64,000 nucleotides of DNA from Pelagibius marinus (GTDB lineage Bacteria > Pseudomonadota > Alphaproteobacteria > Kiloniellales > Kiloniellaceae): assembly GCF_014925385.1 (NCBI RefSeq), contig NZ_JACSDK010000014.1:1-64000 (forward strand), written 5' to 3'. Under the pieces are notes generated by a model, which worked only from the letters and a program-made list of their open reading frames with translations, was not told where the DNA came from and ran no database searches. Of the stretch, positions 14,864 through 52,102 are shown one piece after another; position 1 is the stretch's first letter; every line of letters starts with the position of its first letter. The translations under genes were made by a program, and so were the position numbers.

Positions 14864-14930
14864 ATGGCGGTGCCAGGCGGGCTGCTGGGCGGAACTCGGA
14901 ACCGCCGTATCTATTCCTGATGGACGGGCC

Positions 14931-23803: not shown

Positions 23804-23844
23804 CGCCCCGGGATGACAGCAATGCGCGGCAGGTGGGATGCAGC

Positions 23845-30504: not shown

Positions 30505-32223
30505 CTATTCCTGTGCATTGTAGCGTTGGAACAGGTACTCCATCGTGGCGACTCGGTTGAAGGCGTCGGGGTCGTGCAGACGTGAGGGGTGGAAAAAGCG
30601 CCGCATGTAGGGCATTTCCGTGTCCATGAAGCGAGCGAGGTGCTGCTGGCCAAGATAGGGGGGGAATGCCATCCGCCGCGCGAAGCGCAGGCGATAGGAG
30701 CGGCGTCGGAGCGAGGGTGGTCGGAACAGCGTCAGCCAGTTCCGGGCACGATGGCGCAGCGGTGGCGGATCGCAGAAGCGATAGCCGTAGCCGCTCGGAT
30801 AGGCGGCCAGCTCTGGGGCGAGGCGCTCGATGACCTTTGATTCCAGATAGCCGTAGTTCTTGAATGAGAGCGGAATATCCTCCGTACCGGCGATGACTTG
30901 CGCCTGCATGAAAGGGAAGACCATGCGGCCGAAGCGCAGGTTGAGGTTCACGTCGCGGCCGGTCCAATAGCGGCCGCGCACGAGCGGATAGAGTCGCTCC
31001 ACCTGGGCCCGCGAGACGCAGTGCTCCTGGCTGTGCAGTTCCTCCTGGAAGGTGCGTACCAGGGCGTCCACGTAAGCGGCGGCACGGAACCGCTCAGTAC
31101 AGGCGCCCGGCGCATAGGCGGAAAAAAAGCTGTCGGCCACGGCTTTCAGCGCCGTCTCGCCGTCCGGTATATAGAAGAAATTGCGGTAGATCTCACCTAG
31201 AGATCCGTTGAGCGGTACAGCACCGTCGACGTGTCTGGACATTCGGTCCACCGCGTCAGCGCCGTCGTCGAAGATGCCGTCTACCTTCCAGGCATCGAAC
31301 CGAATGAAATCGCGCTTCTGACGGCTCAGCGAGGAAGCGGTGTCGGAGTCAACCAGGCGGCTCTTGTCGATGACGTTCAGCACCAGACCCTCGCCGATTG
31401 CGATCTGCCTGGCGATCTCTACATCGGAGTCGTGCTCCTGGCCGTAGACGAAGAGCCTGGGCCGGAGACCCGCGGCCTTGAGCCCGGCGAGCATGAGGCG
31501 CGAATCGTATCCGCTGGAGAAGGAAACGTGCAGACGGCCATCGAAACCTTTCGCAAGGTCTGCGAAGAGAGCGCGGAGGCGCTGGCTGTGCGTATCGACC
31601 AGTTCCGCGAACGACATGGCGGTCTCGCGAGGCGGTGTGGGAGGAGCGGAACCGCGTCCAACCGTCATCCGCTCGCCAAACACAACGTCGGCACCTGCAG
31701 GAAGGCGCCGAATTTCGCTGATGAAGGTCCTGCCGCCGAAAGTGGCGCCGTTCCACGCGTACTGATAGACGCCCGTCGTGTCGATGGAAAGCCTGGGCGC
31801 CAGTTCCAGCAGTGCCCAGAACGAACTGGAAGCAATTTCCCCCTCACGGTTCACGTACACCTGGAAGAATCCCATGGCATCGGTGAGAAGCCGAATGCCC
31901 TTGTCCTTGCAGAGTAGAAGGGCGAACTGGCCAATGACTCTCTCCTGGTCGACGACGTTCTGTGCCAGGTCTGCGCAATAGAGCCGCAGGGCTTCGTCGC
32001 CGATAGTGCCGCGGTAGAGGAGCTGGCCGGTGAGGCAGGCGAAACCGCCGTCGGGGGTGTCCACGCAGAGCCCGCCTTCGCCGTCAAGCTTGCGGTATTG
32101 GAAGAGCGTGTGGCCGCCGATCTCGACCCTCCTGGCCAAGGCTAATCCCGCAGCACGGTGGGCTGCGTCAAGAGCCTGCCATCTGGCTGACGAGTCATTG
32201 CCTGCAATGAAGAATGCACCCAT
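30505..32223 (-). CDS. Asparagine-synthetase-like protein lacking the N-terminal Cys
   Basis: 572 residues. An N-terminal Ntn-amidohydrolase-like domain (about 1-200) precedes an AsnB-type ATP pyrophosphatase domain with HVSFSSGYDSRLMLAGLKAAG in place of the usual SGGLDS loop. The protein begins MGAFF, not MCG, so it lacks the Cys2 nucleophile that releases ammonia from glutamine. It may use free ammonia or another amine to form an amide on an adenylated carboxylate, for example a uronic acid. It lies 40 bases after the ATP-grasp gene on the same strand and converges on the transglutaminase-like gene. Distinct from the intact amidotransferase encoded at 52103. Confidence 0.72.
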   Translation of the reverse strand: MGAFFIAGNDSSARWQALDAAHRAAGLALARRVEIGGHTLFQYRKLDGEGGLCVDTPDGGFACLTGQLLYRGTIGDEALRLYCADLAQNVVDQERVIGQFALLLCKDKGIRLLTDAMGFFQVYVNREGEIASSSFWALLELAPRLSIDTTGVYQYAWNGATFGGRTFISEIRRLPAGADVVFGERMTVGRGSAPPTPPRETAMSFAELVDTHSQRLRALFADLAKGFDGRLHVSFSSGYDSRLMLAGLKAAGLRPRLFVYGQEHDSDVEIARQIAIGEGLVLNVIDKSRLVDSDTASSLSRQKRDFIRFDAWKVDGIFDDGADAVDRMSRHVDGAVPLNGSLGEIYRNFFYIPDGETALKAVADSFFSAYAPGACTERFRAAAYVDALVRTFQEELHSQEHCVSRAQVERLYPLVRGRYWTGRDVNLNLRFGRMVFPFMQAQVIAGTEDIPLSFKNYGYLESKVIERLAPELAAYPSGYGYRFCDPPPLRHRARNWLTLFRPPSLRRRSYRLRFARRMAFPPYLGQQHLARFMDTEMPYMRRFFHPSRLHDPDAFNRVATMEYLFQRYNAQE

Positions 32224-32263
32224 GCCTGTCTTTGCGCCCTCTGCAGCGGGAGTGTAACTATTG

Positions 32264-33490
32264 CTAGTCCTTGAGTTTTTGCGGCCGGCGCAGCCAGCCG
32301 AGGGCCACCTCGGCCACGCGGTGCCAGTAGACCCCTCTGTCGCCCGGGAAGGCGTAGTCCGAGGCAATGGTTGGATTGCACAGCCGCAGCAGGAAGGCCG
32401 CCGTTTCCCGCAGGCGGAGGCCGGCGTCGAAACGCGGCGACCGCAGAATTTCGAGCATGCGCGTCAGCTCCCCCGGCCAGAGATCGCCGCAGGTAACCCG
32501 TCGGGCGCAGGTGGGCGGCGGCAGCGGCCGTCCTTCGAACCATGCCATCTGGAGGCGGGGAAAGTCGATGCCGGCGAGCAGGTCGAGATGTAGCGACTGC
32601 CAGTAACGCGGATTGAGCTCTATGAAATCGAAACTGCCGTCGTTGTCACGGATCCGGTATTCAAGCATCGCAGCCCCCTGCCAGCCGAGGTAACGCAGGC
32701 GCTGCACCGCATCTTTCACCAAGTGGTGATTCTGCCAAGTGCGCCGCAGGCTCATAGTGCCGCAGCGCGTCGGGTCCGGGTGAACGTCGACGAAGCAATT
32801 GGAGGCAAGGGCCGTCCCTCCCGCGTCCATCAGCAGCGTAACGCCAGCTTGGCGGCCGGTCACGCCGCCTTGCAGCAAGACCTTGCGATAGGTTCGCAGC
32901 GCCCGGAGCGTGGCGTCCACGGCTTCCTGGGCCTGCAACGGTCCGCAAAGCATATCGTCTGCTCCCGGAGCGGCATGGCGGGCATCTGCCTTCAGGTAGA
33001 GGGGCTCACCCAAGTGCGCGGCATCGTCTTGTGACAGCCGGGCGGCTGCGCGGTCGATGACGAGCGTGGGAGGGTGGTGCTTGAGCAGGCCCAGGCTGGG
33101 TGGTGCTTGGCAGAAAGCCTCGAAAACCTCCACCTTGCTCAGCGCCCGATAGACGACCTGCCGGTCCCGGGCGATCGGCAGCAAGTGCCGGAATTCGTCG
33201 AAACAGGGTTCGATGGCGAGCAAAAGGGCGCCACCGGGAACAATGGCACCGATACCCTGGCTAGCGACATAACCGCGCAGCCAGCCGGTATAGTCAGGGC
33301 TGCCGTAAGGGGGGCAGATCTCCTTCACGGCGCAGAATCGCGAGGCGAAGCCGATTGCATCTGCTCGCGGGGAAGCGGCGTGAACCGGATAGCCGGCCCG
33401 CCCGAGCGAGCGGATAGCGGCCAACATGCCGAGCGCATGGGCCTCCGGAACCAGGACCGGCATGGCTTCGGCCCTAGGCGGGACGGCCAT
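32264..33490 (-). CDS. ATP-grasp carboxylate-amine ligase-like protein (module A)
   Basis: 408 residues. The N-terminal pre-ATP-grasp domain has ALGMLAAIRSLGRAGYPVHAAS. The ATP-binding lobes follow with LYLKAD (nucleotide Lys) and FIELNPRYWQSLHLDLLAG (metal-binding Glu and Asn). Such enzymes form amide or ester bonds through acyl phosphates. The NPRYWQSL segment is shared with the protein encoded at 45960 (NCRYWYSL), so the two are paralogues. It is co-directional with the AsnB-like gene and divergent from a polysaccharide deacetylase. The ATG at 33490 has GAAAGG upstream. The substrate is unknown. Confidence 0.78.
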   Translation of the reverse strand: MAVPPRAEAMPVLVPEAHALGMLAAIRSLGRAGYPVHAASPRADAIGFASRFCAVKEICPPYGSPDYTGWLRGYVASQGIGAIVPGGALLLAIEPCFDEFRHLLPIARDRQVVYRALSKVEVFEAFCQAPPSLGLLKHHPPTLVIDRAAARLSQDDAAHLGEPLYLKADARHAAPGADDMLCGPLQAQEAVDATLRALRTYRKVLLQGGVTGRQAGVTLLMDAGGTALASNCFVDVHPDPTRCGTMSLRRTWQNHHLVKDAVQRLRYLGWQGAAMLEYRIRDNDGSFDFIELNPRYWQSLHLDLLAGIDFPRLQMAWFEGRPLPPPTCARRVTCGDLWPGELTRMLEILRSPRFDAGLRLRETAAFLLRLCNPTIASDYAFPGDRGVYWHRVAEVALGWLRRPQKLKD

Positions 33491-33683
33491 GGCACCTTTC
33501 TCCCACGTGATGCGAGCAAGGATAGATATACTTTGGCCACAAGCGCGGCAGCTCGGGTACTCCTGACATCCGATATATGATTGCCCGGTCTGGCATGCGT
33601 CGGCAATCGTAAGCGGGGGATGATTGGCTCATGGGCTATTGCGAAGAGAGATGCCGGGCGTCTCGGACGGCCGGTTGCGGGCG

Positions 33684-34715
33684 ATGAAGAAGCCGCTGCT
33701 TCGGATAATTCTGCGCCTCGCCAAGTTGACCGGCCTGTTTTTACTGGCACGGCGCCTTACAGCAGGGGATCTCCGCATCCTTTGCTATCATGGCGCTGCG
33801 CTGCGGGACGAGAATCACTTTAGTCCCGGCCTCTTCATGAGCAAGGAGACCTTTGCGGGGCGCATGGATTTCCTCGCTCGCCAGGGTTATCCGGTGATAG
33901 GCCTGGATGCCGCCATAGCCGGGCTGCCGTCCGGCGACTGGCCGAAGGGGGCGACGGTCATCACCATCGATGATGGCTGGTTCGGGACCTACCGCGAAAT
34001 GGCGCCGGTGCTGCGGAAGAGGGGTTTCCCGGCCACGCTCTACATCGCCAGCTACTATCTCGAGAAAGAGACCCAGGTCTTCAATGTTGCTGTCAACTAC
34101 GTACTATGGCGAGCAGGACGCCAGACTCTGGATCTCGCAGAGGTGTCCGATGAACTGGGCGGCCGCTACGACATCGCCGATGCCCGCCTGCGCGAGGAAC
34201 TTCGCCGCCGGCTGGGCGACTTCGCGGATAGCCTCGGCAGTGCAGAAGCGCGCCAGGAACTGTTCCGCCGTCTTTGCGAGACCCTTGGCATCGATGCCTG
34301 CTGGATAGAGCAGGAGCGGCTCTGCGCCTTCATGCGCATTGAGGAGGCCCGTGAACTCCAGGCCAGTGGCGTCGATATCCAGTTGCACAGCCACCGCCAC
34401 CGTTTTCCGACACAGAGCTATGAAGCCGTTGAGGCCGAGATCGCGGATAACCGGCGAGCCCTGGCGCCGGTCGGGAATCCGGCCCTGCGGCATTTCTGCT
34501 ATCCCAGCGGCGACTACGACGAGCGCCAGATCTCGTGGCTGCCACGGCTTGGCATCGTCAGCGCGACGACCATCAAGGCCGGCTTCACGCGCAGGGGAGA
34601 CTCGCCCTACGAGCTGCCCCGTTTCCTCGACAGCGAGCGTGTTTCGCTGCTCGAGTTTGAGGCCGAACTGAGCGGCTTCTTTGAGCTGATCCGCCGCTGC
34701 GGCTATGCCATCTGA
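33684..34715 (+). CDS. Polysaccharide deacetylase (module A)
   Basis: 343 residues. A hydrophobic N-terminus (RIILRLAKLTGLFLLARRL) precedes a NodB-homology domain: ILCYHG, VITIDDGW (catalytic and metal Asp), LHSHRHRF (metal His pair) and HFCYPSGDYDE. It would remove N- or O-acetyl groups from the EPS; WecB-derived ManNAc is a plausible target. ATG at 33684 gives the basic-then-hydrophobic start, although upstream in-frame starts exist. The 193-base upstream region contains ATATATGATTGCC and a GATTGCC/GGCAATC inverted repeat. Confidence 0.88.
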   Translation: MKKPLLRIILRLAKLTGLFLLARRLTAGDLRILCYHGAALRDENHFSPGLFMSKETFAGRMDFLARQGYPVIGLDAAIAGLPSGDWPKGATVITIDDGWFGTYREMAPVLRKRGFPATLYIASYYLEKETQVFNVAVNYVLWRAGRQTLDLAEVSDELGGRYDIADARLREELRRRLGDFADSLGSAEARQELFRRLCETLGIDACWIEQERLCAFMRIEEARELQASGVDIQLHSHRHRFPTQSYEAVEAEIADNRRALAPVGNPALRHFCYPSGDYDERQISWLPRLGIVSATTIKAGFTRRGDSPYELPRFLDSERVSLLEFEAELSGFFELIRRCGYAI

Positions 34716-34934
34716 GGGGGGGAGAGCGTTTCGGGCACGGATGACCGAAGCTTCTCGGGTAGCCGCTGGAGTGGTCCGGCGCGAAGCGCCGGCCTCGCTC
34801 TCGCTTTGAAACTTGATGGCTACCGCCGGGCCAGAGAACTAGAATTGACCCCGCATAACTGCAAGAAGGTCGAATTACGAATGATGATTCATTGCTGCGG
34901 ATGATTTGATTGTCGTCCGTGGCGGGATGGCGGC

Positions 34935-35984
34935 ATGGCTGGATATTTCAAAGACACGGTCAAGTTGATCTGGGAGCATGGAGGAGATGTAAAGAGAGCC
35001 TCCGGGAAGGGCTATCTGGCGCAAATGCTGCAGATCTTGCTCTACAGGCTAAAGGGGTATGGCGCCAAGGATTATTATGTCTTCTTCCTGTACAGAGGCC
35101 TTTCCAAACCAATTATCAATTCCGTCAAGTATGCAACCTGGGTCCGCCGGCTGAACAAGAAGCATCCCGGCGTGTTTCCTTTTGATAAGTGGGTCTTCGG
35201 CAATCTCTGTGAAAACTTCAATCTGCCGAGCCCGAAATGCTACGGGGTCTTTCACCCGGTCTGGGGAGTTCAGGGCAACGGACGCAGCCTGAGATCAGAG
35301 GCCGAGCTGCACGCATTCCTCGCCGAAAAGGGCGGAAGCCTGGTTTTCAAGCCCGCTGCGGGTGCGCACGGCGCGGACGTCGTACTCATCGACAGCTATG
35401 ACCAGGAGCGAAAATGGGTCCATCGCGCCAGTGGTGAAGCAGCCAGCCTCCATGATTTCTTCGAGTGGCTCTGCGCGAGGGATATCAGGTGGCTGATTCA
35501 GGACCGCATCGTCCAACACCCGGACCTGGCGCGCCTCAATGGGAGCTCGGTGAATTGCCTGCGCATTATTACCTACCTGGATGATGAGGGCGTGGCCAAG
35601 GTCGTCAGTGCGCTTCTCAAGGTCGGCCGGGCCAACAGCGAAATCGACAATGCGACTGGCGGCGGCATGATTGCCGCCGTCGACCTGGAAACAGGGCGGA
35701 CGGGCACTTTCGTCGAAATCTTCAATGAGCATCGCTTTACCCATCATCCGGACAGTGGCGAGCAGATTGCGGATTTCCCGGTTCCCTATCTGACCGAGGC
35801 CCTGGAGCTGACGAAGACCGTCCACCGGCTCTTGCCCTATCCCCGCCATCTCGGTTGGGACGTTGCCATCTCGCCGGACGGTCCGCTGCTGATTGAACCG
35901 AACAGCTACATGGCCCATCATCTTATCCAGGAAGCGGGAGCCAGGATCTTTGATCCGGACTTCGTCGCAAAGCAGTCCCGATAG
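34935..35984 (+). CDS. Sugar-transfer-associated ATP-grasp protein (module A)
   Basis: 349 residues. The ATP-grasp core shows SLVFKPAAGAHGADVVLI (nucleotide-binding Lys and glycine loop), SSVNCLRIITYL, NATGGGMIAAVDLETG and LGWDVAISPDGPLLIEPNSY (metal-binding Asp, Glu and Asn). These mark the ATP-grasp group often found in capsule and EPS clusters beside glycosyltransferases. It probably couples a carboxylate to an amine or hydroxyl on the polymer. It is followed by a glycosyltransferase and a sulfotransferase on the same strand. The 219-base gap before it carries an AT-rich stretch (34875-34911) and no gene. Confidence 0.8.
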   Translation: MAGYFKDTVKLIWEHGGDVKRASGKGYLAQMLQILLYRLKGYGAKDYYVFFLYRGLSKPIINSVKYATWVRRLNKKHPGVFPFDKWVFGNLCENFNLPSPKCYGVFHPVWGVQGNGRSLRSEAELHAFLAEKGGSLVFKPAAGAHGADVVLIDSYDQERKWVHRASGEAASLHDFFEWLCARDIRWLIQDRIVQHPDLARLNGSSVNCLRIITYLDDEGVAKVVSALLKVGRANSEIDNATGGGMIAAVDLETGRTGTFVEIFNEHRFTHHPDSGEQIADFPVPYLTEALELTKTVHRLLPYPRHLGWDVAISPDGPLLIEPNSYMAHHLIQEAGARIFDPDFVAKQSR

Positions 35985-36080
35985 CGATTGCTGCTCGCCA
36001 CGACAGCCGCATCGGGCTGTTTCGGAACGCGCCAAGCTCGCGGGGGCCAGCCAGATCAATCGACATCGACGGAGGTCGAT

Positions 36081-37433
36081 TTGAAGGTTCTGTTCGTTTG
36101 CTGGTATTTCCCTCCAGCCAATACGATCGCCGCCGTGCGGCTGGGAAAGCTGGCGAAGTACCTGCAAAAGACCGGCAACGAGGTCCGCGTGCTGACCGCC
36201 AGAGATCTGCCGTATGCCGCGACGCTCCCCCTTGAGATTCCCGACGAGCAGGTCGTTCGCAGCGACTGGTGGGACATCAATGCCATTCCCGGGACTATCA
36301 AGCGCAGGTTGATGGCACCGTTTCGGGGGCGGCCGTCGGACGGCTCGGCAGCGAGAGCACCGGACCGGCGCTTGCGGCAGGTAGAGCGGAAGGAGCCGAG
36401 ACCGCCGGAAAAAAGGGAAAGCAAGTACGGCGGGAAGCTCTCCGCCATGTATCAGCGCGCCGTGAACATTCCCGACGGGCAAATCGGTTGGGTGCCATTG
36501 GCGCGCCGCGCCGGCCGCCGGTTACTGGAGAGCTGGAGGCCGGACGTGATCTTTGCGAGTGGTCCGCCATTCTCGGCGCTGCTGGTCGGGCAAGGCCTGA
36601 GCAGAACCACGGGCATCCCGCTGGTCGAGGAGCTGCGGGACCGCTGGTCCGACGATCCCTATTATCCACCCGGCCCTCTGCGGCATCGCTTCGAAAGCTG
36701 GCTGGAAGGCAGGGTGCTGGGACAGGCGAGCGCTTTGACGACTGTATCCGGTCCCTGGGCGGAGGCGTATCGCGCAAAGTACGGCAAGCCGGTCGAGGTG
36801 ATTTACAACGGCTATGATCCGGCGGACGCCCCCGCGGAAGCGCTGGAAGGCTGGCCCGATCCGAAAGTGCTGAGAATCCTGCATACGGGAGGCATCTATC
36901 GGGGCAGAAGGGACCCGAGCCCGCTGTTCCGGGCGATTGCCCGCTCCGACGACCTGCGCGAGAAGGTGCGGGTCGTCTTCTATGGTTTATCCACTCAGTA
37001 TATGCCCGCCATGGCCAGGGAGCACGGTATCGAGGACTGTGTGGAAGTGTACCAAAGGGTCGACCATGACGAAGCGCTGAGGCAGCAATACAGCTCCGAC
37101 ATCTTGCTGTTGCTGCAGCACGACAGCCCATCGGAGCAGGGCAACGTGCCGGGAAAGTTCTTCGAATATCTCGGTGCCCGCCGCCCGATCCTCGTGCTGG
37201 GCTATCGTGAGGGCGTTCCCGGAGCGATCGTGAAAGAGCGCGCGGCAGGTGTGGTCACCACAGACCCGGACGAGATCGCCGCGCAGCTCAGGCGGTGGTC
37301 TGCCGAGAAGGAAGCGCTGGGCAGGCTTCCAAATCTGCCCCCCAGCGTCAGTGCCGGCTTTACACATGAAGAGCAGGCTTTGAAATTGGAGTCCTTCTTG
37401 CGGGAAGTTGTTGTGGGAGGTCAGGCGGGATGA
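36081..37433 (+). CDS. GT4-like glycosyltransferase
   Basis: 450 residues from a TTG start that has GGAGG 5 bases upstream, which decides against the longer frame beginning at 35988. VLFVCWYFPPANTIAAVR is the GT-B N-terminal loop; HTGGIYRGRRDPSPLFRAI opens the donor domain and VPGKFFEYLGARRPILVLG is its nucleotide-sugar site. A basic/proline insertion near residues 75-115 is unusual. It belongs to the group of EPS enzymes that recognise long lipid-linked acceptors; its donor is not evident. It lies 96 bases after the ATP-grasp gene. Confidence 0.85.
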   Translation: MKVLFVCWYFPPANTIAAVRLGKLAKYLQKTGNEVRVLTARDLPYAATLPLEIPDEQVVRSDWWDINAIPGTIKRRLMAPFRGRPSDGSAARAPDRRLRQVERKEPRPPEKRESKYGGKLSAMYQRAVNIPDGQIGWVPLARRAGRRLLESWRPDVIFASGPPFSALLVGQGLSRTTGIPLVEELRDRWSDDPYYPPGPLRHRFESWLEGRVLGQASALTTVSGPWAEAYRAKYGKPVEVIYNGYDPADAPAEALEGWPDPKVLRILHTGGIYRGRRDPSPLFRAIARSDDLREKVRVVFYGLSTQYMPAMAREHGIEDCVEVYQRVDHDEALRQQYSSDILLLLQHDSPSEQGNVPGKFFEYLGARRPILVLGYREGVPGAIVKERAAGVVTTDPDEIAAQLRRWSAEKEALGRLPNLPPSVSAGFTHEEQALKLESFLREVVVGGQAG

Positions 37434-37484
37434 GCGCCACATGATTGCTCTGGATCAGGTGCCGAGCCGTTTGCGGAGCAGCGG

Positions 37485-38453
37485 GTGAGCCCTATGTCGA
37501 TCAAGGAAGCCGTAAAACGTCCCCTGGAGCGTGCGATGACCGGACTCGAGCGGAAGCTGGTCGCGCGGGATCGGGAGCCGTCCTTTCGGCCGATCTTCAT
37601 CGTTGCGCCGGCGCGCTCTGGCTCGACGCTGCTGTACCAGGCAATGACGCGCTATTTCGATCTATGCTACTTCTCCAATGCGATGACACGGTTTCCGGAG
37701 AGCCCGGTTTGCCAGGCGATCCTGCTATCGCCCTTTGGCGGCTGCGACCCGCCGGACACCTTTCTCAGCAACCGGGGGCATGTCGAAGGGGGCAGGGGGC
37801 CGAGCGACGGCACCAAGATCTGGGCCCAGTGGTTTCGCAATGAGCCTCAGCGCATTCCGAACGGGGTTCTGACGCCGCGGCAGAGGCGGGAGGTCCGCAC
37901 TGTGATAAGCCGTTTCCAGGACGCATTCGCGGCCCCATTCATCAACAAGACGCAGAGAAACTGCGGACGCATCCTGGCGCTGGCTGAGATTTTTCCCGAG
38001 GCTGTATTCGTCTGCATGCACCGGGACCCTTTCGAAATGGTCAGATCACGCTGGCAGATCTTCCAGTCCCGCGATGATGAAGACAGGCTGTGGCAGTCGT
38101 ATCGGCCTCACAACGCCCACGAGATCGTCACCGACGATCCCCTCGAGCATTTATGCCAACAGGTTGTGTTTACCGAAGCGGAGATCGAGAGCGACAGGCG
38201 GATGCTGGGGCGGCAGGCGTTCTTTGATGTGCACTATGAGGATTTTTGCCGGCAACCGGCCGCGAACCTCGAGGCCTTCGCCGGCTTCTATAGCGAAGGG
38301 TTCCAGGGACCGGCGCTCAAGCGGCGTCACGGGATCCCGGCGAGCTTTGCGGCGGGCGAAACTAGAAACCTGCCGGCTGGGGAGGCTGAGGCCATAAGGA
38401 GCCATCTCAGGCGGCTTGCGGAAGCACGTCCGGCGGTGGATGTGGATGCCTAG
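37485..38453 (+). CDS. Sulfotransferase (4 of 6, module A)
   Basis: 322 residues. FIVAPARSGSTLLYQAMTRY is the PAPS loop (Ser replacing the second Thr), FINKTQRNCGRILALAEIF and VFVCMHRDPFEMVRSRWQIF give the acceptor and 3'-phosphate regions, and VHYEDFCRQPAANLEAF follows. This is a Sulfotransfer_3-like protein, more divergent from the others. GTG at 37485 and ATG at 37494 are both possible starts. It follows the glycosyltransferase by 51 bases and converges on the GNAT-like gene. Confidence 0.85.
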   Translation: MSPMSIKEAVKRPLERAMTGLERKLVARDREPSFRPIFIVAPARSGSTLLYQAMTRYFDLCYFSNAMTRFPESPVCQAILLSPFGGCDPPDTFLSNRGHVEGGRGPSDGTKIWAQWFRNEPQRIPNGVLTPRQRREVRTVISRFQDAFAAPFINKTQRNCGRILALAEIFPEAVFVCMHRDPFEMVRSRWQIFQSRDDEDRLWQSYRPHNAHEIVTDDPLEHLCQQVVFTEAEIESDRRMLGRQAFFDVHYEDFCRQPAANLEAFAGFYSEGFQGPALKRRHGIPASFAAGETRNLPAGEAEAIRSHLRRLAEARPAVDVDA

Positions 38454-38466
38454 ACGGAGCGGGAAT

Positions 38467-39678: not shown

Positions 39679-40041
39679 CTTCAATGCGAACCTCCCGGTT
39701 TCGTCATTCGGCACCATGATGCCGGCCCGCAGAACGGAGGACGAGGGCAGCCGCGGAGGGGAGCGCGGCGGGCCTTGTTGCTGCAAAGTCTTTTTGTACT
39801 CAGGTCGGCCAGCAAAATGCCCGGTTGAATGCCGCCCGTCGCCGATCCCGACCTCCTATCGATGTTGGTGCCTTGCATCCGGAAAACGTTCCGAGAGAAA
39901 TTGCAAGGCATGCGGTTGCAAGCTCTCACCTTACTTGTTTTCCTCGTAGCAATCGGCTCAGCTTGGCATGTCCCGATTGTGAATGTCGACCGAAGCCGAG
40001 GTGCTCCAAGGCTACGATAGACGGCAGGGAAGGAGCCTCTT
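39679..40041. other. Divergent intergenic region with one possible 36-residue frame
   Basis: 363 bases between the GNAT-like gene (minus) and the propeller/lyase-like gene (plus). One short plus frame at 39910-40020 would encode a hydrophobic peptide (MRLQALTLLVFLVAIGSAW, then a basic tail); its ribosome site is weak, so I do not call it a gene. TTGCAA occurs at 39901 and again 14 bases further on, flanking a GGCATGC palindrome. No clear terminator or promoter was found. Confidence 0.3.
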
Positions 40042-42741: not shown

Positions 42742-42842
42742 AGCCTTGCCATTTTCTCCTCGGTGATCGCTACAATGAGTGGCGGTAGATGCAGCGACAC
42801 TACAGAAAGCAGGATGTAGCTTCTTGAGCCAAGGATAAGGGG

Positions 42843-43799
42843 ATGGCGGAAGAACCGCTGGAAACGAGATCCTCGCACATGGACAGGCCGATTCTTTTTG
42901 TTTTCGGCGCTGCCCGGAGCGGCACGACGATCCTGAACAATCTTCTTTACCGCCATTTCTCCTATGGAATGGGCCCGGAGGGCACCTTCGTTGCGCAGTG
43001 GGCGCGCCGCCTGCCGGCCTACGGAGACCTGCGCGACGATGCCAATCTCGAAAGACTGGCGCGAGACGTCTCGCAATGTCGCATGCTGGAGATCGCGCGC
43101 CACAAGTACCGCCGAAATCCTTTTGATGTCACTCCCGAGCTCATCCTCAGCCGGATGCAAGAGCGCAGCTATGCCGGGGTCGTCTATTCCGTTTTCCAGT
43201 GCATGGCGGAGCTGCAGGGATGTTCACGGGTAGGCAACAAGAACCCGGACTACGGCCGTCACTTTCCGCTGCTGCACCAGCTCTTTCCGATGCAGGCGAA
43301 ATATCTCTCCATCGTGCGCGACGGCCGGGACGTGGCCCTTTCGATCGTCAAGACGCGCTGGGGCCCGAGTTCCTGCTACGCGGCTGCAAAAGCCTGGATG
43401 CGGGCCCTGACGGATCTCGGACGGATGGAGGAGAAGCTAGGCCCGGACCGCCTGCACGTGCTCAAGTATGAGGACCTGCTCCGGCAACCCTGGGAGACCC
43501 TTGAAGGGATGCGCCAATTCCTCCGTATCCCCCCGGCGGAGGCACAGGTAGCTGCGGCTGCCGCAGAAATCGCCGACGGCAAGAAATCGGCCAACTTCGA
43601 CAAGTGGCGGCGCCAGATGTCCGCCGACGATCTACGTGTCTTCGAAGGGCTGGCCGGCGACCGGCTGCAGAGATACGGCTATGAACTCTCGGGAAATGGA
43701 GGGAGCGTTCGCTGGCGGGACTATCTGCGGTATGAGTCCAGGGAGTACATGCGACTGGCGATGGTGAACGCGAGGCACAGCGTATCGAGGTTGAGCTGA
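42843..43799 (+). CDS. Sulfotransferase (5 of 6, module B)
   Basis: 318 residues. FVFGAARSGTTILNNLLYRH is the PAPS loop and YLSIVRDGRDVALSIVKTRW the 3'-phosphate motif; GNKNPDYGRHFPLL and KYEDLLRQPWETLEGMRQF follow the pattern of the proteins encoded at 23845 and 25652. It has AAGGGG directly before its ATG. The deacetylase gene starts one base after its stop, so sulfation and deacetylation are probably co-expressed. Confidence 0.88.
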   Translation: MAEEPLETRSSHMDRPILFVFGAARSGTTILNNLLYRHFSYGMGPEGTFVAQWARRLPAYGDLRDDANLERLARDVSQCRMLEIARHKYRRNPFDVTPELILSRMQERSYAGVVYSVFQCMAELQGCSRVGNKNPDYGRHFPLLHQLFPMQAKYLSIVRDGRDVALSIVKTRWGPSSCYAAAKAWMRALTDLGRMEEKLGPDRLHVLKYEDLLRQPWETLEGMRQFLRIPPAEAQVAAAAAEIADGKKSANFDKWRRQMSADDLRVFEGLAGDRLQRYGYELSGNGGSVRWRDYLRYESREYMRLAMVNARHSVSRLS

Positions 43800-43800
43800 T

Positions 43801-44865
43801 GTGCGCGGCGCTGCCTCGAATATCGCAGACATCGATCGCGCGGTGGCGCCCGGGGACTTGTGGCAGTCCATGAGAACCAAGGTGGCCATCACGGTTGATA
43901 CGGAACCGTCTGTAGCCGGCGCCTTCGCCGACCCGGCGCGCTACAAGCCTCTCCTGCACGAACCGGTGTGGGGCGCGGTGAACGGCAGGAGTGAAGCGCT
44001 CGGCTTCGTTGTCGACACGCTGTTGGCTCACGGCCTCACTGCATCCTTCTTTGTTGAGACCGTGCATCTGTCTTGCTTTCCCGAAGACGCTATGGGCGGC
44101 TACGTCAGGTGGCTGCGGGAAAAAGGACAGGACATCCAGTTGCATCTCCATCCGGTGTGGAGCCGCTTCGAGGGAGCGCGCTACGCGAGTGTGAACGACC
44201 GCTGCAGGGAGTTGCCCGAGGATCGCCTGGTGGAGCTGATCGCCGCCGGTAGTGAGCGCATCGAGAAGTGGTGCGGAAGGCCACCTCTGTGTCTTCGCAC
44301 CGGAAATTTTTCCGTGTCGACCAGCGTCTACCGAGCGATGCGCCGCGCGGGCCTGAAACTGGGGTCGAATGTTTGCCTGGCGGTCGCCCCGCCCAAGGAG
44401 GCGGCGCTTCGCTTCAGCGGCGGTGTCCACCGTGTTGCGGGAGTCACCGAGCTGGCTGTCACCTGCTTTCGCGACCGCGGGCCCGTCGGACGCGGACGGT
44501 ACAGGCCGCTGCAGGTCTCGGCATGCAGCTTCGATGAGTTGCGCGACCTTCTGATTTCGGTGAATAGGGCGGGCGGCACGGTCGCGGTCGTTGTCACGCA
44601 TCCCTTCGAGTTCGTGAAATGGTCTGGCCCGGATTTTTCTCGGCTGCGGGCCAACACGGTCGTGCAGCGGCGGTTTGCGCAGCTATGCCACTTTCTGACG
44701 CAAGCCGCCGATCGCTTCGAGGTCGTGCCCATGGGCCGCATCGCCGAGGCCGGTATCGAGCCGGAAGAAGCGGTGTCCTTGCACGGGAGGGCTTTATCCT
44801 CGACCCTGCGCGCGGTGGAGAATTTCGTGAACGACCGCTTCCCGCCGCTGACCTGGATGGGATAG
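43801..44865 (+). CDS. Polysaccharide deacetylase-like protein (module B)
   Basis: 354 residues. KVAITVDTEPS supplies the first Asp of a NodB-like domain, TASFFVETVHL the following strand, and DIQLHLHPVW the metal-binding His pair; VVVTHPFEF near the C-terminus completes the barrel. It is more divergent than the protein encoded at 33684. The start is uncertain: GTG at 43801 is coupled to the previous stop, while ATG at 43870 (MRTKVAITVDTE) matches where relatives usually begin. Part of an operon with the sulfotransferase before it and the GNAT-like gene 8 bases after. Confidence 0.75.
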   Translation: MRGAASNIADIDRAVAPGDLWQSMRTKVAITVDTEPSVAGAFADPARYKPLLHEPVWGAVNGRSEALGFVVDTLLAHGLTASFFVETVHLSCFPEDAMGGYVRWLREKGQDIQLHLHPVWSRFEGARYASVNDRCRELPEDRLVELIAAGSERIEKWCGRPPLCLRTGNFSVSTSVYRAMRRAGLKLGSNVCLAVAPPKEAALRFSGGVHRVAGVTELAVTCFRDRGPVGRGRYRPLQVSACSFDELRDLLISVNRAGGTVAVVVTHPFEFVKWSGPDFSRLRANTVVQRRFAQLCHFLTQAADRFEVVPMGRIAEAGIEPEEAVSLHGRALSSTLRAVENFVNDRFPPLTWMG

Positions 44866-44873
44866 GCGGAACG

Positions 44874-45905
44874 ATGCAGAATCAAACCGCTCTTGGCGCA
44901 CAATGCGCAGCACCGCGCCGGGCCACGGCGGATGCCGGCCACGAGCCGTCGCGGCGTGAGGTTGAGCTCAAGTTCTGGTTCGGGCCTTTCAGGTTGTGGA
45001 CTGCTGTGTTCGACATGCAAGTGGAGCACTGGTCCGGCGATCCCCTGGGGCAGACGGTGCCGGATCCGGCAGCGCTGCCGGAAGGCGTGGACGGACTCTA
45101 CAGGCCGTCCCAGATTGTTCGGGGTGAGGAGCCGGATTTGCGGTTCTCGAGCACGACGGTCCGCTATATCGAGAGCCGGTTCCGTCGGAGGTTCATCGAC
45201 CTGACCACCGGCTTTGACAACTACATGAGCAAGTTCTCCGGTAAGACCCGTTCAACATTCCGCAGAAAATTCAGAAAGTTCCGAGAGGCGTCCGCCGGAA
45301 CGATCGACTGGCGTGTCTATCGCAGTGCCCGCGAAATGGAAGAGTTCCACCTCACGGCACGGCAGGTCTCCAGGCGGACCTATCAGGAGAAGCTGTTCGA
45401 CGCCGGACTTCCCGATGACGCAGACTTCGTCGCCGGCATGCTTGCGCGCGCCGAGTCAGGGCAGGTGCGCGGATTCATTCTCTTTCTCGGCGGAGAGCCG
45501 ATCAGCTATCTGTATCTCCCGATTGTCGACGGGCGCGTAATTTACGGCCGCCTTGGCTTCGATCCCGCCTACGCAGTTCTGTCTCCCGGCACCATCCTGC
45601 AGCTGCTCGCCTTGGAATCCCTGTTCGCCGAGCAATGCCACCGGATCTTCGACTTCACCGAGGGCGAGGGGGAACACAAGCGGTTGTTTGCTACTCAGGA
45701 AGTCCTCTGCGGAAACGTCTACTACCTGCGAGCGACAACGCGGCACCGGACGCTGGTGCGGCTCCATTGCGGGACGCGCCGCCTGGCCGACCTTGTTGAT
45801 CGCCAACTCTCGCGCGTTAAACTGAAGACGCATTTGAAGCACATCTTGCGTGGCCAGTATCGCGCTCCGCAGGAACGTGGCCGGAAGTCTTTGCCAAAGC
45901 GCTAG
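44874..45905 (+). CDS. GNAT/FemAB-fold acyltransferase-like protein (CelD/BcsL type, module B)
   Basis: 343 residues. YMSKFSGKTRSTFRRKFRKF is the basic helix typical of FemAB/CelD proteins, and GFILFLGGEPISYLYLPIVDGR with GRLGFDPAYAVLSPGTILQL is the acyl-CoA-fold core. IFDFTEGEGEHKRLFAT is the equivalent of the FDFGRDRESFKK segment in the protein encoded at 38467, so the two are distant paralogues. ATG at 44874 has GGCGGA upstream. Its acyl donor and acceptor are unknown; an acetyl or aminoacyl group on the EPS sugar is plausible. Confidence 0.8.
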   Translation: MQNQTALGAQCAAPRRATADAGHEPSRREVELKFWFGPFRLWTAVFDMQVEHWSGDPLGQTVPDPAALPEGVDGLYRPSQIVRGEEPDLRFSSTTVRYIESRFRRRFIDLTTGFDNYMSKFSGKTRSTFRRKFRKFREASAGTIDWRVYRSAREMEEFHLTARQVSRRTYQEKLFDAGLPDDADFVAGMLARAESGQVRGFILFLGGEPISYLYLPIVDGRVIYGRLGFDPAYAVLSPGTILQLLALESLFAEQCHRIFDFTEGEGEHKRLFATQEVLCGNVYYLRATTRHRTLVRLHCGTRRLADLVDRQLSRVKLKTHLKHILRGQYRAPQERGRKSLPKR

Positions 45906-45959
45906 CGCCCGCTTCGAGCCGGCTAAGGAGCGTTCAGACGGCGGGAGGCCGCGCTGGGG

Positions 45960-47027
45960 TCAATGCCTCAGGTGGGATGCCAGATGTGGGAGCGGATCGC
46001 TTACCGCCTGGTAGAAGCCGCGCCAGTTGGCCCGGTCCAGTCGGGCCAGGTGCCAGGGCCGCCGGGCCATGGCAACAACGGTTCCCGGCTGGAAGTAGGC
46101 GCCAGGCCGAGTTGGGGAGAAGGGAATCCGGCGGCCCTGCGCCAAGTCCACGGCGAGGGCCGGGAAGTTGCCGCCGTGCCACAGGGATACCGGCAGGCTG
46201 TACCAGTACCGGCAGTTGAATTCGAGGGCGTATAACCGGCCGCTTTCGCTTTCTTGAACAAAGTCAATATGGCCGGGGCCGCCGTAGCCGAAGAGAGCGA
46301 CGATGCGCCGGCCGATTTCCAAGATCGCCGGGTGGTCTTCGAAAATCCGGGCGCCGTCCTCCGCGTGGCGCTGGATGTCGTAGCAAAGGATCTCGCCGTT
46401 GAGGGCAAGCAAGGACAGTCCAATGGTTGATCCGACGATGAAGCGCTGCAGCTTCAACGGCAGGGCCGTGTAGGGGCCGGGCTTCATGAGGTACTGCCGG
46501 AGGGTGGGATAGTCATGGAAGCGCCGGATCCCGTGGCCGGACTCTCCGTTTAGTGGCTTCACCAGCAGCGGATAGCCCACGGCGGCGGTTCCGGCTTCCG
46601 TCAGACTGCTCAGGTTCTCCACCTGCGCGGAGGGAGGCACAGGCAGACCATGGCGCAGCAGGTGCGTGTAGAACGACCACTTGTCGTGACAGACCTGCAG
46701 GAGGCCGCCCGTCGAGGGCGCGAAGGCCGGCGCCGTGATGTCGCCGGCGATGTCATGGAGAAGCGCATGCGATGCAATGTCGTCACCCAGCACCGCGGCG
46801 ACCGGGTAGGCCTGGGACAAGGCATTGATGCGCTCCACCAGGCGGCGGCGGTGCCGATCCGAGTTTGCCGCACCGATGGCGTGGAAGCCTTTGCAATAGC
46901 GGGAGTACTTCAGGTAGCTGGCAGGGTTCGCGGCGATGACTTCAACCCTCTTACCGGCATAGCTGAGGCAATAAAGAACCTTCAAGCCGATGGCCGGGTT
47001 ACGGGAGTAAAGAATGACAATTTCCAT
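45960..47027 (-). CDS. ATP-grasp carboxylate-amine ligase-like protein (module B)
   Basis: 355 residues. MEIVILYSRNPAIGLKVLYC opens a pre-ATP-grasp domain; YPLLVKPLNGESGHGIRRF is the nucleotide-binding loop and ALEFNCRYWYSLPVSLWHGG the metal-binding Glu/Asn segment. That segment and the following GRRIPF match the protein encoded at 32264 (ELNPRYWQSL and GRPLP), identifying a paralogue. It is divergent from the second sugar-transfer ATP-grasp gene, with about 120 bases between. The ATG overlaps an ATATATCATTGCC element. The substrate is unknown. Confidence 0.8.
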   Translation of the reverse strand: MEIVILYSRNPAIGLKVLYCLSYAGKRVEVIAANPASYLKYSRYCKGFHAIGAANSDRHRRRLVERINALSQAYPVAAVLGDDIASHALLHDIAGDITAPAFAPSTGGLLQVCHDKWSFYTHLLRHGLPVPPSAQVENLSSLTEAGTAAVGYPLLVKPLNGESGHGIRRFHDYPTLRQYLMKPGPYTALPLKLQRFIVGSTIGLSLLALNGEILCYDIQRHAEDGARIFEDHPAILEIGRRIVALFGYGGPGHIDFVQESESGRLYALEFNCRYWYSLPVSLWHGGNFPALAVDLAQGRRIPFSPTRPGAYFQPGTVVAMARRPWHLARLDRANWRGFYQAVSDPLPHLASHLRH

Positions 47028-47149
47028 ATATCATTGCCGCTCCGGTTGGCCACTCCACCACCCGCCGCCTATGCTAGCACCCGCGATCCGATGTCACCGC
47101 GGAAAGTGCAGGACGCTTGTGGTTGGCTGGAAATTCTGGGGGGCGGTGG

Positions 47150-48463
47150 ATGTCCATAGATCGTCGTCTCGCAGCGCTCATCAAGCTGAACCTGGCCGAG
47201 TACCTGTATGTGACACGCACGACAGAGGCCACGCGGTTCGGCAAGGCGCTGGATGCCTTTCTGGCATTTCTCAAGAAATGCGAGACAAGCGCGTACAACC
47301 TGCCCTGGTTCTATAGCGATTGCCCCGACTCGGTGCGAAGATTGCACGACCTGGCTTTCCGTGCGCAACGGAATGCGGCTTCATCCAGGCTGCTGCCGGT
47401 TCTGCGCACGATCTTGTGGCCTGGCGTCGGCCTGTCGTTGTGCATGCTATTCCTGGCGCGGAATGGGGCATGCGTCCGCAGGCATTTCGCCGTGTCGGTC
47501 GTTCGACAGATGTTCGGCAGCCTCCACGCCTTGTATCGCTACAACGTCGCGCCATCGGACTATTTTTCCCTGCACTTGTTCAATTGTCCCTCCACGCGGG
47601 CGGTCCCCCTCTACTTCTGCCAGCGTGAGAAGGACGCGATCCTCAGAGCGACGCAGCCCGGAAGCAAGGAGGTACGCATCGCGAACAACAAGGTGCGGTT
47701 TTTCCGGCACTGCCAGAGCGCCGGCCTGCCGACTCCTGAAATCGTGGCCTCCTTCTCCAACGACGGAGCCCCCGCGGCATGGTTCGGCGATCACAAGGAA
47801 CTTCCCGGGGTGGATCTTTTTAGGAAGCCCCCGGACCGGTTCGGCGGCAGTGGGGCGGAGCTTTGGCGGTACCGCAGCCGCACCGACAGTTGGAGCAGCA
47901 ATGGCCGAACGCTCGCGCGGAGCGAGTTCCTGGTGGACTGTGGAAAGCGGCACTGCATCCTGCAGCCGGCTCTCCGGAACCATGCAGATCTTCAAGCGCT
48001 GGCGGGCGAAGGACTGGCAACCTTTCGCGTCGTCACTGTGTTGTCCGCTGAAACAGGGCCGGCTGTTATCGGTGCTCTGCTCAAGATACCCATGGGCGGT
48101 GCGGTGATAGACGCGTACTGGGCCGGCGGCCTGGTTTCCGGTGTCGATATGGAGCGGGGAACATTGAAGGCGGCGGTGGCTAGGGATCTCTGCAAGGGAA
48201 GATTTCAGCGGCACCCAGTTAATCAGGAGATCATCGCGGGGAGGCCAATTCCCCACTGGAGTGACGTCCTCGCCGTGGCAGTTCTTGCGCAGTCGTCTCT
48301 TCCCGGCCTCACGTCGATCGGCTGGGATATCGCGGTGACCGACGAGGGAGCGTCGATTGTCGAAGGTAATGTCGGGTGGAACTTCGAGATGTTTCAGGTC
48401 GGTCTGGGGTGTGGCCTGGGAGATACCGGGTTCCTGCGCTGGGCGGGGGAAATGCTGGGCTAG
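47150..48463 (+). CDS. Sugar-transfer-associated ATP-grasp protein (module B)
   Basis: 437 residues. The first 180 residues are helical and less conserved. The ATP-grasp core has VDLFRKPPDRFGGSGAELW, GLATFRVVTVLS, VIDAYWAGGLVSGVDMERG and SIGWDIAVTDEGASIVEGN, in the same order as the protein encoded at 34935 (FKPAAGAHGAD, NCLRIITYL, GGGMIAAVDLETG, LGWDVAISPDGPLLIEPN). ATG at 47150 is preferred, with GGGGGGCGG just upstream, over a GTG at 47117. It converges on a sulfotransferase gene. Confidence 0.8.
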   Translation: MSIDRRLAALIKLNLAEYLYVTRTTEATRFGKALDAFLAFLKKCETSAYNLPWFYSDCPDSVRRLHDLAFRAQRNAASSRLLPVLRTILWPGVGLSLCMLFLARNGACVRRHFAVSVVRQMFGSLHALYRYNVAPSDYFSLHLFNCPSTRAVPLYFCQREKDAILRATQPGSKEVRIANNKVRFFRHCQSAGLPTPEIVASFSNDGAPAAWFGDHKELPGVDLFRKPPDRFGGSGAELWRYRSRTDSWSSNGRTLARSEFLVDCGKRHCILQPALRNHADLQALAGEGLATFRVVTVLSAETGPAVIGALLKIPMGGAVIDAYWAGGLVSGVDMERGTLKAAVARDLCKGRFQRHPVNQEIIAGRPIPHWSDVLAVAVLAQSSLPGLTSIGWDIAVTDEGASIVEGNVGWNFEMFQVGLGCGLGDTGFLRWAGEMLG

Positions 48464-48534
48464 CGGCTTGCCGCAGGGGGGCGGTCCCTTTCATAACCGG
48501 CGAAGACTATGATAATTGCCGCCGCCACCGCTGG

Positions 48535-49317
48535 TCAGCCCGAGACGGGCAGCTTCGCCTTGACGGTTCTTGCGATCGTGTCCGCCAGAAGTGCGGGGTG
48601 GGAGACCTTCCGAACATAGTGGTCCAAGAGCGCCCGCCGCTTGCCGATGAGGCGGGCGCAGCGTTTGATCCTGGCCGGTTCCCGGACCTCGAGATAGTCG
48701 GCCAGACGGGCCACTTCCTGCGTCGGATCGCCGATCAGGGCTTCATAAGCAATCTGGCATACCGGTATGCCGAGGTGATCCGCGGTCCATGCGGAATTGA
48801 CGTCGTAGGCTTCCGTCATTTCCAGGGACCGGCTGAAGTCGTTTCCGCAGTATTCCCTCACCTCTCTGTGCTTCATCACGCTCGCAGCGGCTGCCTCCAG
48901 GCGCCGTGTTACGCGTATCACTTTCAATCCGTCCCGCTTGAGGCGGCCGACCTGGACCCAGGACCATAAGGTGGTGCTGAAGCGGGGATCTTTCATTCCG
49001 AACGACGCGGCGTTCTCCACCCATGGGATGCTTGTGCTTGCGAGAATTTTCCAGTCACCATTCTCGAAGAGCTTGTCCGGGGTTCCGGGATTGGCCTGGG
49101 TTCCCCCCGCGGAAGCGATAAATCTTGTGTTTGCGGAAACGATTTCACGGCGCTGAAAATAGCCAAGCGGATTGAAGCGGTCCGGTGGGGGAGAGGCCTC
49201 TGCGGCAGGACCGAAGTATACGTCGAGACCGGCCAGGATCGCGCTAACCAGAGAGGTGCCGGAGCGGAATGGTCCCATTACGATAACGGCGGTCGAGTTC
49301 TGGCCGGTTGAAGCCAA
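48535..49317 (-). CDS. Sulfotransferase family protein (6 of 6, module B)
   Basis: 260 residues. VIVMGPFRSGTSLVSAILAG is a P-loop-like PAPS site, FGMKDPRFSTTLWSW and VIRVTRRLEAAAASVMKHRE correspond to the acceptor and 3'-phosphate regions, and IAYEALIGDPTQEVARLADYL follows. It belongs to a shorter, divergent branch of the sulfotransferase family. The start is TTG at 49317, supported by GGAGG 6 bases upstream. It is divergent from algD. Confidence 0.8.
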   Translation of the reverse strand: MASTGQNSTAVIVMGPFRSGTSLVSAILAGLDVYFGPAAEASPPPDRFNPLGYFQRREIVSANTRFIASAGGTQANPGTPDKLFENGDWKILASTSIPWVENAASFGMKDPRFSTTLWSWVQVGRLKRDGLKVIRVTRRLEAAAASVMKHREVREYCGNDFSRSLEMTEAYDVNSAWTADHLGIPVCQIAYEALIGDPTQEVARLADYLEVREPARIKRCARLIGKRRALLDHYVRKVSHPALLADTIARTVKAKLPVSG

Positions 49318-49518
49318 AATTCACCTCCAGCATGCTGTGAAGGAGCACCAATTCTTGCAGAGCAGAGAGCGGGGGGCTAGGTGCGGCAGCGCCGTCCGGC
49401 TAGGAAGCGGCATTTGGCGGCAACCCGTAATGGCGATGGGGCGGAGCGAGTTGGTTTGCAGGTGTCGTGGCAGTTGTGAGACCCATTGACCGCAGAAGAG
49501 AGGCCGCAAGTCGACACA

Positions 49519-52095: not shown

Positions 52096-52102
52096 AGGCG
52101 AC

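Follow-up and report, generated by a model that had tools for sequence, protein, structure and literature searches.

The DNA examined here comprises bases 1-64000 of a 371 kb contig of Pelagibius marinus (genome 5.44 Mb), and this whole 64,000-base stretch is referred to as the window. It belongs to an XrtA/PEP-CTERM exopolysaccharide (EPS) locus, of which it forms the decorating part, and carries two gene sets, A and B, each with two kinds of ATP-grasp protein, a deacetylase, a FemAB-like GNAT protein and at least one sulfotransferase, joined in set A by an asparagine-synthetase-like (AsnB-like) ligase (Table 1). XrtA loci occur in floc- and biofilm-forming bacteria, and the chemistry of their polymers is little known. 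G, C, L and H numbers below are our labels for genomes, contigs, loci and plasmid matches.

An XrtA-associated ligase precedes the sets, and two XrtA-system glycosyltransferases starting at 50878 (TIGR04063) and 54040 (TIGR03087) follow them, with an amidotransferase between at 52103 that falls under the cut-off of its nearest model, TIGR03108 (531.9 vs 816.9 bits). The exosortase (PF09721, 196.7 bits) lies 15 kb beyond the window at 79143-80933 of the contig (G000:C14). After it, likewise outside the window, come adjacent genes for a FemAB-like protein (PF13480) and a deacetylase (PF01522) at C14:80867-82794.

The genes named in a preliminary description of this DNA, made from its letters alone, all exist: each open frame has coding-like third-position GC, and both the quoted motifs of the carboligase-type ATP-grasps (NPRYWQSL/NCRYWYSL) and the shared layout of the sugar-transfer pair are present. 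The carboligase-type genes do lie on the minus strand; however, they are divergent neighbours of the plus-strand genes and do not overlap them. The genes at 38467 and 48535 are also real, and their minus-strand placement had been left unsaid.

Table 1. Genes of sets A and B, followed by other genes of the locus, in the window
Feature	Position	Strand	Basis
AsnB-like ligase	30505..32223	-	hhalign against XrtA amidotransferases, probability 92.8
ATP-grasp A, ExNxR motif	32264..33490	-	family profile; under all Pfam cut-offs
NodB/CE4 deacetylase A	33624..34715 (true start perhaps 33684)	+	PF01522 (Polysacc_deac_1), 62.6 bits vs 23.1; divergent from ATP-grasp A
ATPgrasp_ST A (sugar-transfer-associated ATP-grasp)	34935..35984	+	PF14397, 165.4 bits vs 31.4
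Sulfotransferase A	37485..38453	+	PF13469 (Sulfotransfer_3), 67.8 bits
FemAB-like GNAT A	38467..39786	-	PF13480 (Acetyltransf_6), 89 bits vs 22
Sulfotransferase B1	42843..43799	+	PF13469, 87.3 bits
CE4-like deacetylase B	43801..44865	+	predicted fold; PF01522 14.5 bits, under cut-off 23.1
FemAB-like GNAT B	44874..45905 (longer frame from 44619)	+	PF13480, 70.2 bits vs 22
ATP-grasp B	45960..47027	-	above cut-off for ATP-grasp_3 and CPSase_L_D2
ATPgrasp_ST B	47117..48463	+	PF14397, 119 bits vs 31.4
Sulfotransferase B2	48535..49317	-	PF13469, 36.3 bits
XrtA-associated O-glycosylation ligase	27813..29147	-	TIGR03097, 506.9 bits vs cut-off 188.1
Transglutaminase-like protein	29342..30490	+	PF01841, 25 bits vs cut-off 23
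Glycosyltransferase	35988..37433	+	PF13439
Kelch-like protein	40042..42741	+	weak Kelch_4 match; matches in seven other XrtA loci
Nucleotide-sugar dehydrogenase	49486..50835	+	TIGR03026, 357.5 bits vs 189.8
XrtA-system glycosyltransferase, amidotransferase, glycosyltransferase	50878..55251	+	TIGR04063, TIGR03087 above cut-off

Sets A and B are not copies of one module

The preliminary description had read the two sets as one five-part module present twice. This did not stand, given that the pairs are not sister paralogues, gene order differs between the sets, and no outside locus was found with all five families; what recurs elsewhere are smaller units. In an all-against-all BLASTP comparison of the window proteins, the ATPgrasp_ST pair matched at 31% over 138 aa (80 bits), ATP-grasps A and B at 29% over 76 aa (39 bits), and the FemAB-like GNAT pair at 26% over 231 aa (53 bits). 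The two deacetylases gave no significant match (E 0.38), and sulfotransferases A and B1 matched at E 0.016.

Closer relatives were found elsewhere. ATP-grasp A has better matches than ATP-grasp B in nine other sequences, which represent 8 loci and 7 genomes; judged by eye, the one from G175 appears to be a biotin carboxylase. Seven others match ATP-grasp B better than ATP-grasp A does. Above the 80 bits within their own pair, ATPgrasp_ST A scored 109 and 115 bits with proteins of G003 and G011, and ATPgrasp_ST B 115 bits with a protein of G046; in a tree of 23 ATPgrasp_ST proteins, which has long branches, A and B fall in separate groups. By the refuting test that the preliminary description itself had set, neither the carboligase-type pair nor, by bit score and this long-branched tree, the ATPgrasp_ST pair is closer to itself than to other ATP-grasps. 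Sulfotransferase B1 is far closer to the proteins at 25631 (122 bits) and 23731 (80 bits), both outside the sets. The pair similarities, the tree and the kinship of B1 lead to the conclusion that sets A and B came together separately and are not copies of each other. A true duplication so old that the pairs now look unrelated would account for the presence of the same five families on both sides and for the alignment of the two ATP-grasp family profiles over 309 columns (E 6e-29). We consider it very improbable, because each ATP-grasp has nearer kin in other genomes, the ATPgrasp_ST proteins split in the tree (which has long branches), B1 groups with 23731 and 25631, and a five-part unit was seen in no outside genome. 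Gene order differs as well, and together with the pair similarities and the tree this led us to reject a duplicated module.

The nearest approach to the proposed module was in G051, where genes for FemAB (14828), a deacetylase-like protein (17051, minus strand), an ATP-grasp (18143, plus strand) and a sulfotransferase (20054, plus strand) lie within 6.2 kb. An XrtA-type ligase lies 2.4 kb before FemAB, and the deacetylase-like and ATP-grasp genes are divergent, as in set A.

Fourteen outside XrtA loci of the order were compared, some of them as short stretches or ending at a contig edge. ATP-grasp A homologues were present in 2 of the 14, G059 (split over two frames) and G051 (weak), and best matches of FemAB-like A in 6, which makes the ATP-grasps variable parts of XrtA loci. 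In four same-family XrtA loci FemAB-like A matched at 35-36% (216-222 bits); a PDB sequence search with it gave nothing useful. That the same-genus XrtA locus of G003 lacks the ATP-grasps was not used as evidence, because its 51.9 kb contig ends at the O-ligase and the place may be cut off.

Deacetylase genes at several loci adjoin genes for putative amide formers

Deacetylase A is a clear member of PF01522. Deacetylase B has a CE4/NodB fold according to its predicted structure (pLDDT 84), for which the best Foldseek match was ArnD (8t0j; E 1.4e-9, TM 0.46/0.58), followed by CE4 enzymes. Its family conserves TVDxE, HxHP and THP motifs.

Ten loci with a B-type deacetylase were compared, namely the window, L154, L155 (in G434), L156, L157, L158, L159, G071, G098 and G072; at the outside loci FemAB-like genes were called by BLAST to the window's protein. 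A FemAB-like gene lies directly downstream on the same strand in 6/10 (window, L154, L156, L159, and G098 and G072, whose stretches are L161 and L162). The L154 genes are 9 bases apart and encode proteins 56% (deacetylase) and 54% (FemAB-like) identical to the window's. The slot behind the deacetylase is filled by an ATP-grasp in one of the ten, G434, and by a DegT-type aminotransferase in L157, and no amide former lies directly behind it in L158 and G071. The chance of FemAB at 5 of the 9 outside loci was 4e-12 to 4e-10 at an assumed 0.2-0.5%, a figure that ignores the clustering of EPS genes.

A second deacetylase-like family adjoins an ATP-grasp in G051, G397 and Vibrio. An amide former directly adjoins this family in 5 of 12 loci (G059, G060, G051, G397:C11 and Vibrio).

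ATP-grasps A and B and their relatives

ATP-grasps A and B are COG3919-like. ATPgrasp_Ter (PF15632) is among their nearest models; its cut-off of 29.1 bits was missed by both (A 17.2, B 23.4). The A and B family profiles match 2pn1 (E 1.3e-19 and 9.3e-15), CPSase and Ddl, and on this profile evidence both are kin to carboxylate ligases.

Relatives were counted at 21 outside loci, each read for at least 5 kb on one side: G059, G051, G061, two in G397, G434, G305, G196, G138, Vibrio alfacsensis, two in Halocatena, Natronorubrum, Chelatococcus, Xanthobacter, Halorussus halophilus, Halorussus vallis, Haloprofundus, Natribaculum, Phenylobacterium and Halobaculum. Annotation tables alone served for Xanthobacter and for the seven plasmid records added last, which brought the count from 14 to 21. 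The count leaves out G175, G183 and G067 (the latter two with less than 5 kb of flank), plasmid matches H3, H6, H7, H8, H11, H28 and H31 with four further records, and H17 to H20 from a separate match list; H4 and H32 duplicate the counted H33 and H9.

A deacetylase or deacetylase-like gene directly adjoins the ATP-grasp at 4/21 loci (G051, G397:C11, G434 and Vibrio) and lies within 8 kb at 7/21, which adds G059, Natribaculum (one gene away) and Haloprofundus (5 kb). A PF13480 gene is within 5 kb at five loci (G051, G061, Vibrio, Natronorubrum and Chelatococcus), so that one or the other partner is near at 10/21. In G397:C11 and Vibrio alfacsensis the deacetylase-like gene and the ATP-grasp overlap by 4 bases. 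Sulfotransferase genes directly adjoin the ATP-grasp at two loci (G051 and G397:C11; mutual identity 60% over 252 aa). The chance of four adjoining deacetylases among 21 was 1e-7 to 5e-5 at an assumed 0.2-1% per locus, again with EPS gene clustering ignored. Since the deacetylase-ATP-grasp pairs of G397:C11 and G434:C14 sit, by eye, among unrelated genes outside EPS loci, such clustering does not explain those two.

Several further features of these relatives were observed. Some ATP-grasp A relatives are fused to a low-molecular-weight (LMW) phosphotyrosine phosphatase domain (PF01451; L145 5951-7678, L132 6623-8602, L169 8956-10734, and by motif only L106 18143-20044); in G434 the phosphatase is a neighbouring gene of the ATP-grasp (L148 9892-10482), and in the window no LMW phosphatase motif was found when looked for. 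On an archaeal plasmid of Natribaculum, overlapping genes for a deacetylase, a PHP-domain protein and an ATP-grasp are annotated (L186 4498-7161), and on a Haloprofundus plasmid an ATP-grasp and a polysaccharide deacetylase 5 kb apart are accompanied by a nucleotide-sugar dehydrogenase and a DegT aminotransferase (L184 44-7203). The closest homologue of ATP-grasp A, in G059:C103 (28349-29517 of L093-L094 joined end to end), lies in two frames, owing either to gene decay or to misassembly.

An AsnB-like ligase without glutaminase

The AsnB-like gene falls within the range covered by the preliminary description, which does not mention it. Its start was moved from 32367 to 32223, because its homologues start at the equivalent residue. 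The gene thereby follows ATP-grasp A on the same strand after a 40-base gap and is likely the second gene of an operon with it. An SxGxDS loop is present in 11 of 12 family members, and none of the 12 has a Cys among its first 6 residues, so that the N-terminal glutaminase nucleophile is absent and glutamine is unlikely as the ammonia source. The window's protein did not match Asn_synthase (PF00733) at E values up to 5, and its G060 relative scored 20.9 bits against a cut-off of 21; neither a useful PDB sequence match nor a match on plasmids was obtained.

Among 385 genomes of the class, the family turned up in 8, one of them the window's own. It is found in 3 of the 4 outside genomes with a B-type deacetylase, compared with 7/384 overall (hypergeometric 1.5e-5). 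AsnB-like genes lie at most 50 bases from a deacetylase-like gene in G059 and G060, and at L156, a Magnetococcales locus with an O-ligase homologue, the AsnB-like gene is divergent from the B-type deacetylase.

The sugar-transfer-associated ATP-grasps stand apart

The surroundings of ATPgrasp_ST were compared by eye at 29 strong places in 57 related genomes, with many contigs short; among the matches listed, no PF13480, PF01522 or PF13469 gene was found within 20 kb. ATPgrasp_ST as the anchor of a conserved module was therefore rejected. A pattern scan of the genome contigs for named ATPgrasp_ST A relatives found none. At G397:C39 an ATPgrasp_ST and a small GNAT lie beside an ATP-grasp.

On plasmids, four of the five records matching ATPgrasp_ST A were compared, H25 being left out. 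A polysaccharide deacetylase lies 7.6-7.9 kb from ATPgrasp_ST in Rhizobium and Shinella; none was near it in Lichenicola and Ensifer, the latter unannotated and compared by BLAST only. The Shinella gene (L180 4481-10513) stands behind genes for an acyl carrier protein (ACP), an AMP-binding ligase and a type III pyridoxal-phosphate (PLP) enzyme and is two genes from a nucleotide-sugar dehydrogenase, whereas only the PLP enzyme of that set is annotated in Rhizobium (L179 6257-8666). The Shinella order echoes apparent acyl-ligase and PLP-decarboxylase genes of the XrtA core, seen by eye at 70183-73076 of the window contig.

Proposed amide exchange and its alternatives

Given these neighbourhoods, the XrtA polysaccharide may quite possibly receive two independent amide-exchange decorations together with sulfate, a functional reading that we hold with a little less than even confidence. 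In set B, the CE4-like deacetylase would expose the amine of an N-acylated sugar for re-acylation by the FemAB-like enzyme encoded directly downstream. In set A, the NodB deacetylase would free the amine, the divergently encoded ATP-grasp A would ligate a carboxylic acid to it via an acyl-phosphate, and the AsnB-like protein could make a second amide by adenylation, without glutamine. The sulfotransferases would place sulfate on the same polymer. ATP-grasp B and both ATPgrasp_ST proteins may have a different role, coupling amines or amino acids to carboxylates of uronic acids, which the nucleotide-sugar dehydrogenase at 49486 possibly supplies; for ATPgrasp_ST this role is suggested by the ACP, AMP-binding, PLP and dehydrogenase setting in Shinella. 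Of the amide decoration in the preliminary description, what survives is that deacetylases or deacetylase-like genes adjoin amide formers above rough chance rates (6/10 FemAB and 1/10 ATP-grasp behind B-type deacetylases, 4/21 around ATP-grasps); the five-part module and, among the matches listed, the link to ATPgrasp_ST do not.

Several observations weigh against this proposal. Although the H, H, P and W of HxHPxW are invariant in 7 sequences of the deacetylase B family, HSxxH, the canonical CE4 metal motif, is lacking. The second deacetylase-like family is weakly identified: PF01522 was reached in 2 of 8 members at E values up to 0.1 (best 2e-4), its profile had no PDB match, and profile comparison alone (E 2e-8) ties it to the B-type family. 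The first-motif Asp, kept in G397 and others, is replaced by His in the G051, Vibrio and Photobacterium members, so that those of G051 and Vibrio may not deacetylate. No amide former adjoins this family in 7 of 12 loci (own contig at 88040, G061, G269, L156, L157, Sphingomonas and Photobacterium). The Sphingomonas deacetylase, without such a neighbour in an XrtA locus, speaks against tight coupling, and the XrtA locus of Photobacterium GJ3 has FemAB-like and deacetylase-like genes without an ATP-grasp. Neither partner was near the ATP-grasp at 11 of the 21 loci (G305, G196, G138, G397:C39, both Halocatena, Xanthobacter, both Halorussus, Phenylobacterium and Halobaculum). In G098 and G072 a long distance separates the AsnB-like gene from the B-type deacetylase gene, and in G071 the two are on different contigs. 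The predicted structure of ATP-grasp A, with a pLDDT of 39, was not usable.

Alternatively, all the ATP-grasps might act on uronic-acid carboxylates, forming amides with amino acids or amines; the deacetylases would then belong to a separate pathway and lie near only as EPS genes. The dehydrogenase gene directly after set B and the Shinella ATPgrasp_ST two genes from such a dehydrogenase, behind ACP, AMP-binding and PLP enzymes, are consistent with this, as is the uronamide formation assigned to a WbpS-type amidotransferase in the part of a published locus description concerned (PMC3684757). It does not account, however, for the G397:C11 and G434:C14 pairs of deacetylase and ATP-grasp, which lie outside EPS loci, and we regard it as rather unlikely. 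Less probable still is that the ATP-grasps make a small molecule, for instance a peptide or an amine-acid conjugate, apart from the polymer, with the LMW phosphatase partners removing phosphate. Relatives fused to or beside phosphatase domains, family profiles that match amino-acid ligases and Ddl, and several haloarchaeal relatives without an annotated partner of these families nearby would fit such a product; on the other hand, the window, G051, G059, G061 and Vibrio have their ATP-grasps within XrtA EPS loci.

The amide-exchange proposal can be widened, with considerable doubt. ATP-grasp ligases, often as LMW phosphatase fusions, could replace or supplement FemAB as the re-acylating half of deacetylase cassettes, making up an undescribed EPS amide-exchange system whose small cassettes occur in Alpha- and Gammaproteobacteria and perhaps in haloarchaea; the window would combine it with a glutaminase-less AsnB-like ligase and two ATPgrasp_ST proteins on one polymer. 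If the amide-exchange reading is right, acids or amines are ligated enzymatically to the polymer, which also bears sulfate, and swappable cassettes of two or three genes determine this decoration. A testable substrate class would then be at hand for ATPgrasp_ST, for the COG3919-like ATP-grasps and for the AsnB-like family without glutaminase.

Other features of the locus

The transglutaminase-like protein has a homologue in the XrtA locus of G046 (52% over 311 aa), and in G434 a transglutaminase (PF01841) also precedes the deacetylase and ATP-grasp. The glycosyltransferase at 35988 is kept in related XrtA loci, with 41-48% matches in eight others. Upstream of the sets lie a C-type lectin-domain protein (PF00059; 20733-21440) with homologues in 9 of the 14 outside XrtA loci, and a toroid-like protein (26621-27787; weak SQHop_cyclase_C) that is 56% identical in the XrtA loci of G061 (L132 8676-9884) and G057 (L105 2971-4152). 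A heparinase II/III-like protein (PF07940; 21380-23803) and more sulfotransferases (14721-15836, 23731-24939 and 25631-26590; PF13469 tested for the last two) are also encoded there, so that the polymer is perhaps similar to a sulfated glycosaminoglycan containing uronic acid.

Comparison with known systems

The statement in the preliminary description that no described pathway has these parts was too strong, since deacetylase and FemAB-like enzymes together are described in excerpts of two papers (PMC5362036, PMC3684757); on the pairing of an ATP-grasp with a deacetylase no paper was found. A search on ATP-grasp with exosortase returned only a paper on aminolipids, matches for ATP-grasp with polysaccharide deacetylase were judged off-topic from their listing, and none was found for ATP-grasp with sulfotransferase or FemAB and exopolysaccharide, or for capsular polysaccharide with amide. 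The deacetylase and ATP-grasp pairing thus appears undescribed in the literature searched, while deacetylase and FemAB-like decoration is already known.

Among the ligases, the two ATPgrasp_ST proteins are members of a family (PF14397) reportedly named as sugar-transfer ATP-grasp in the 2009 amidoligase survey of Iyer and colleagues, whereas the two COG3919-like proteins miss the cut-off of ATPgrasp_Ter. AsnB-like amide formers without glutaminase include beta-lactam synthetase and the lasso cyclase. The window's AsnB-like protein resembles them in its SxGxDS-type loop and lack of an N-terminal cysteine and differs in giving no PDB match to them and in sitting in EPS loci. The NodB-family deacetylase and FemAB-related protein of the XrtA core are presumably TIGR03006 and TIGR03019.

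In Caulobacter, the deacetylase HfsH and the FemAB-like N-acyltransferase HfsK act on one adhesive polysaccharide, the holdfast, perhaps in one pathway, according to excerpts of PMC5362036. The combination of a deacetylase and a FemAB-like GNAT enzyme on one polysaccharide is as proposed here; those excerpts describe no ATP-grasp or sulfotransferase with them. Moreover, deacetylase A lies far under the cut-off of the HfsH model NF050820 (22.3 vs 400 bits), and no NCBIfam model matched deacetylase B at E 0.001. A polysaccharide deacetylase is listed among EpsH-linked families in the relevant part of Haft 2006 (PMC1569441), and the psc1 PEP-CTERM EPS locus of Rubrivivax, as excerpted from PMC3684757, has neighbouring nodB and femA genes and WbpS-type amidotransferases. 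HfsH/HfsK and the nodB-femA pair are therefore precedents for deacetylase and FemAB-like decoration of EPS. The adjacent nodB-femA pair of the XrtA core is also present in this genome, after the exosortase, whereas sets A and B are additional to it and bring the ATP-grasps.

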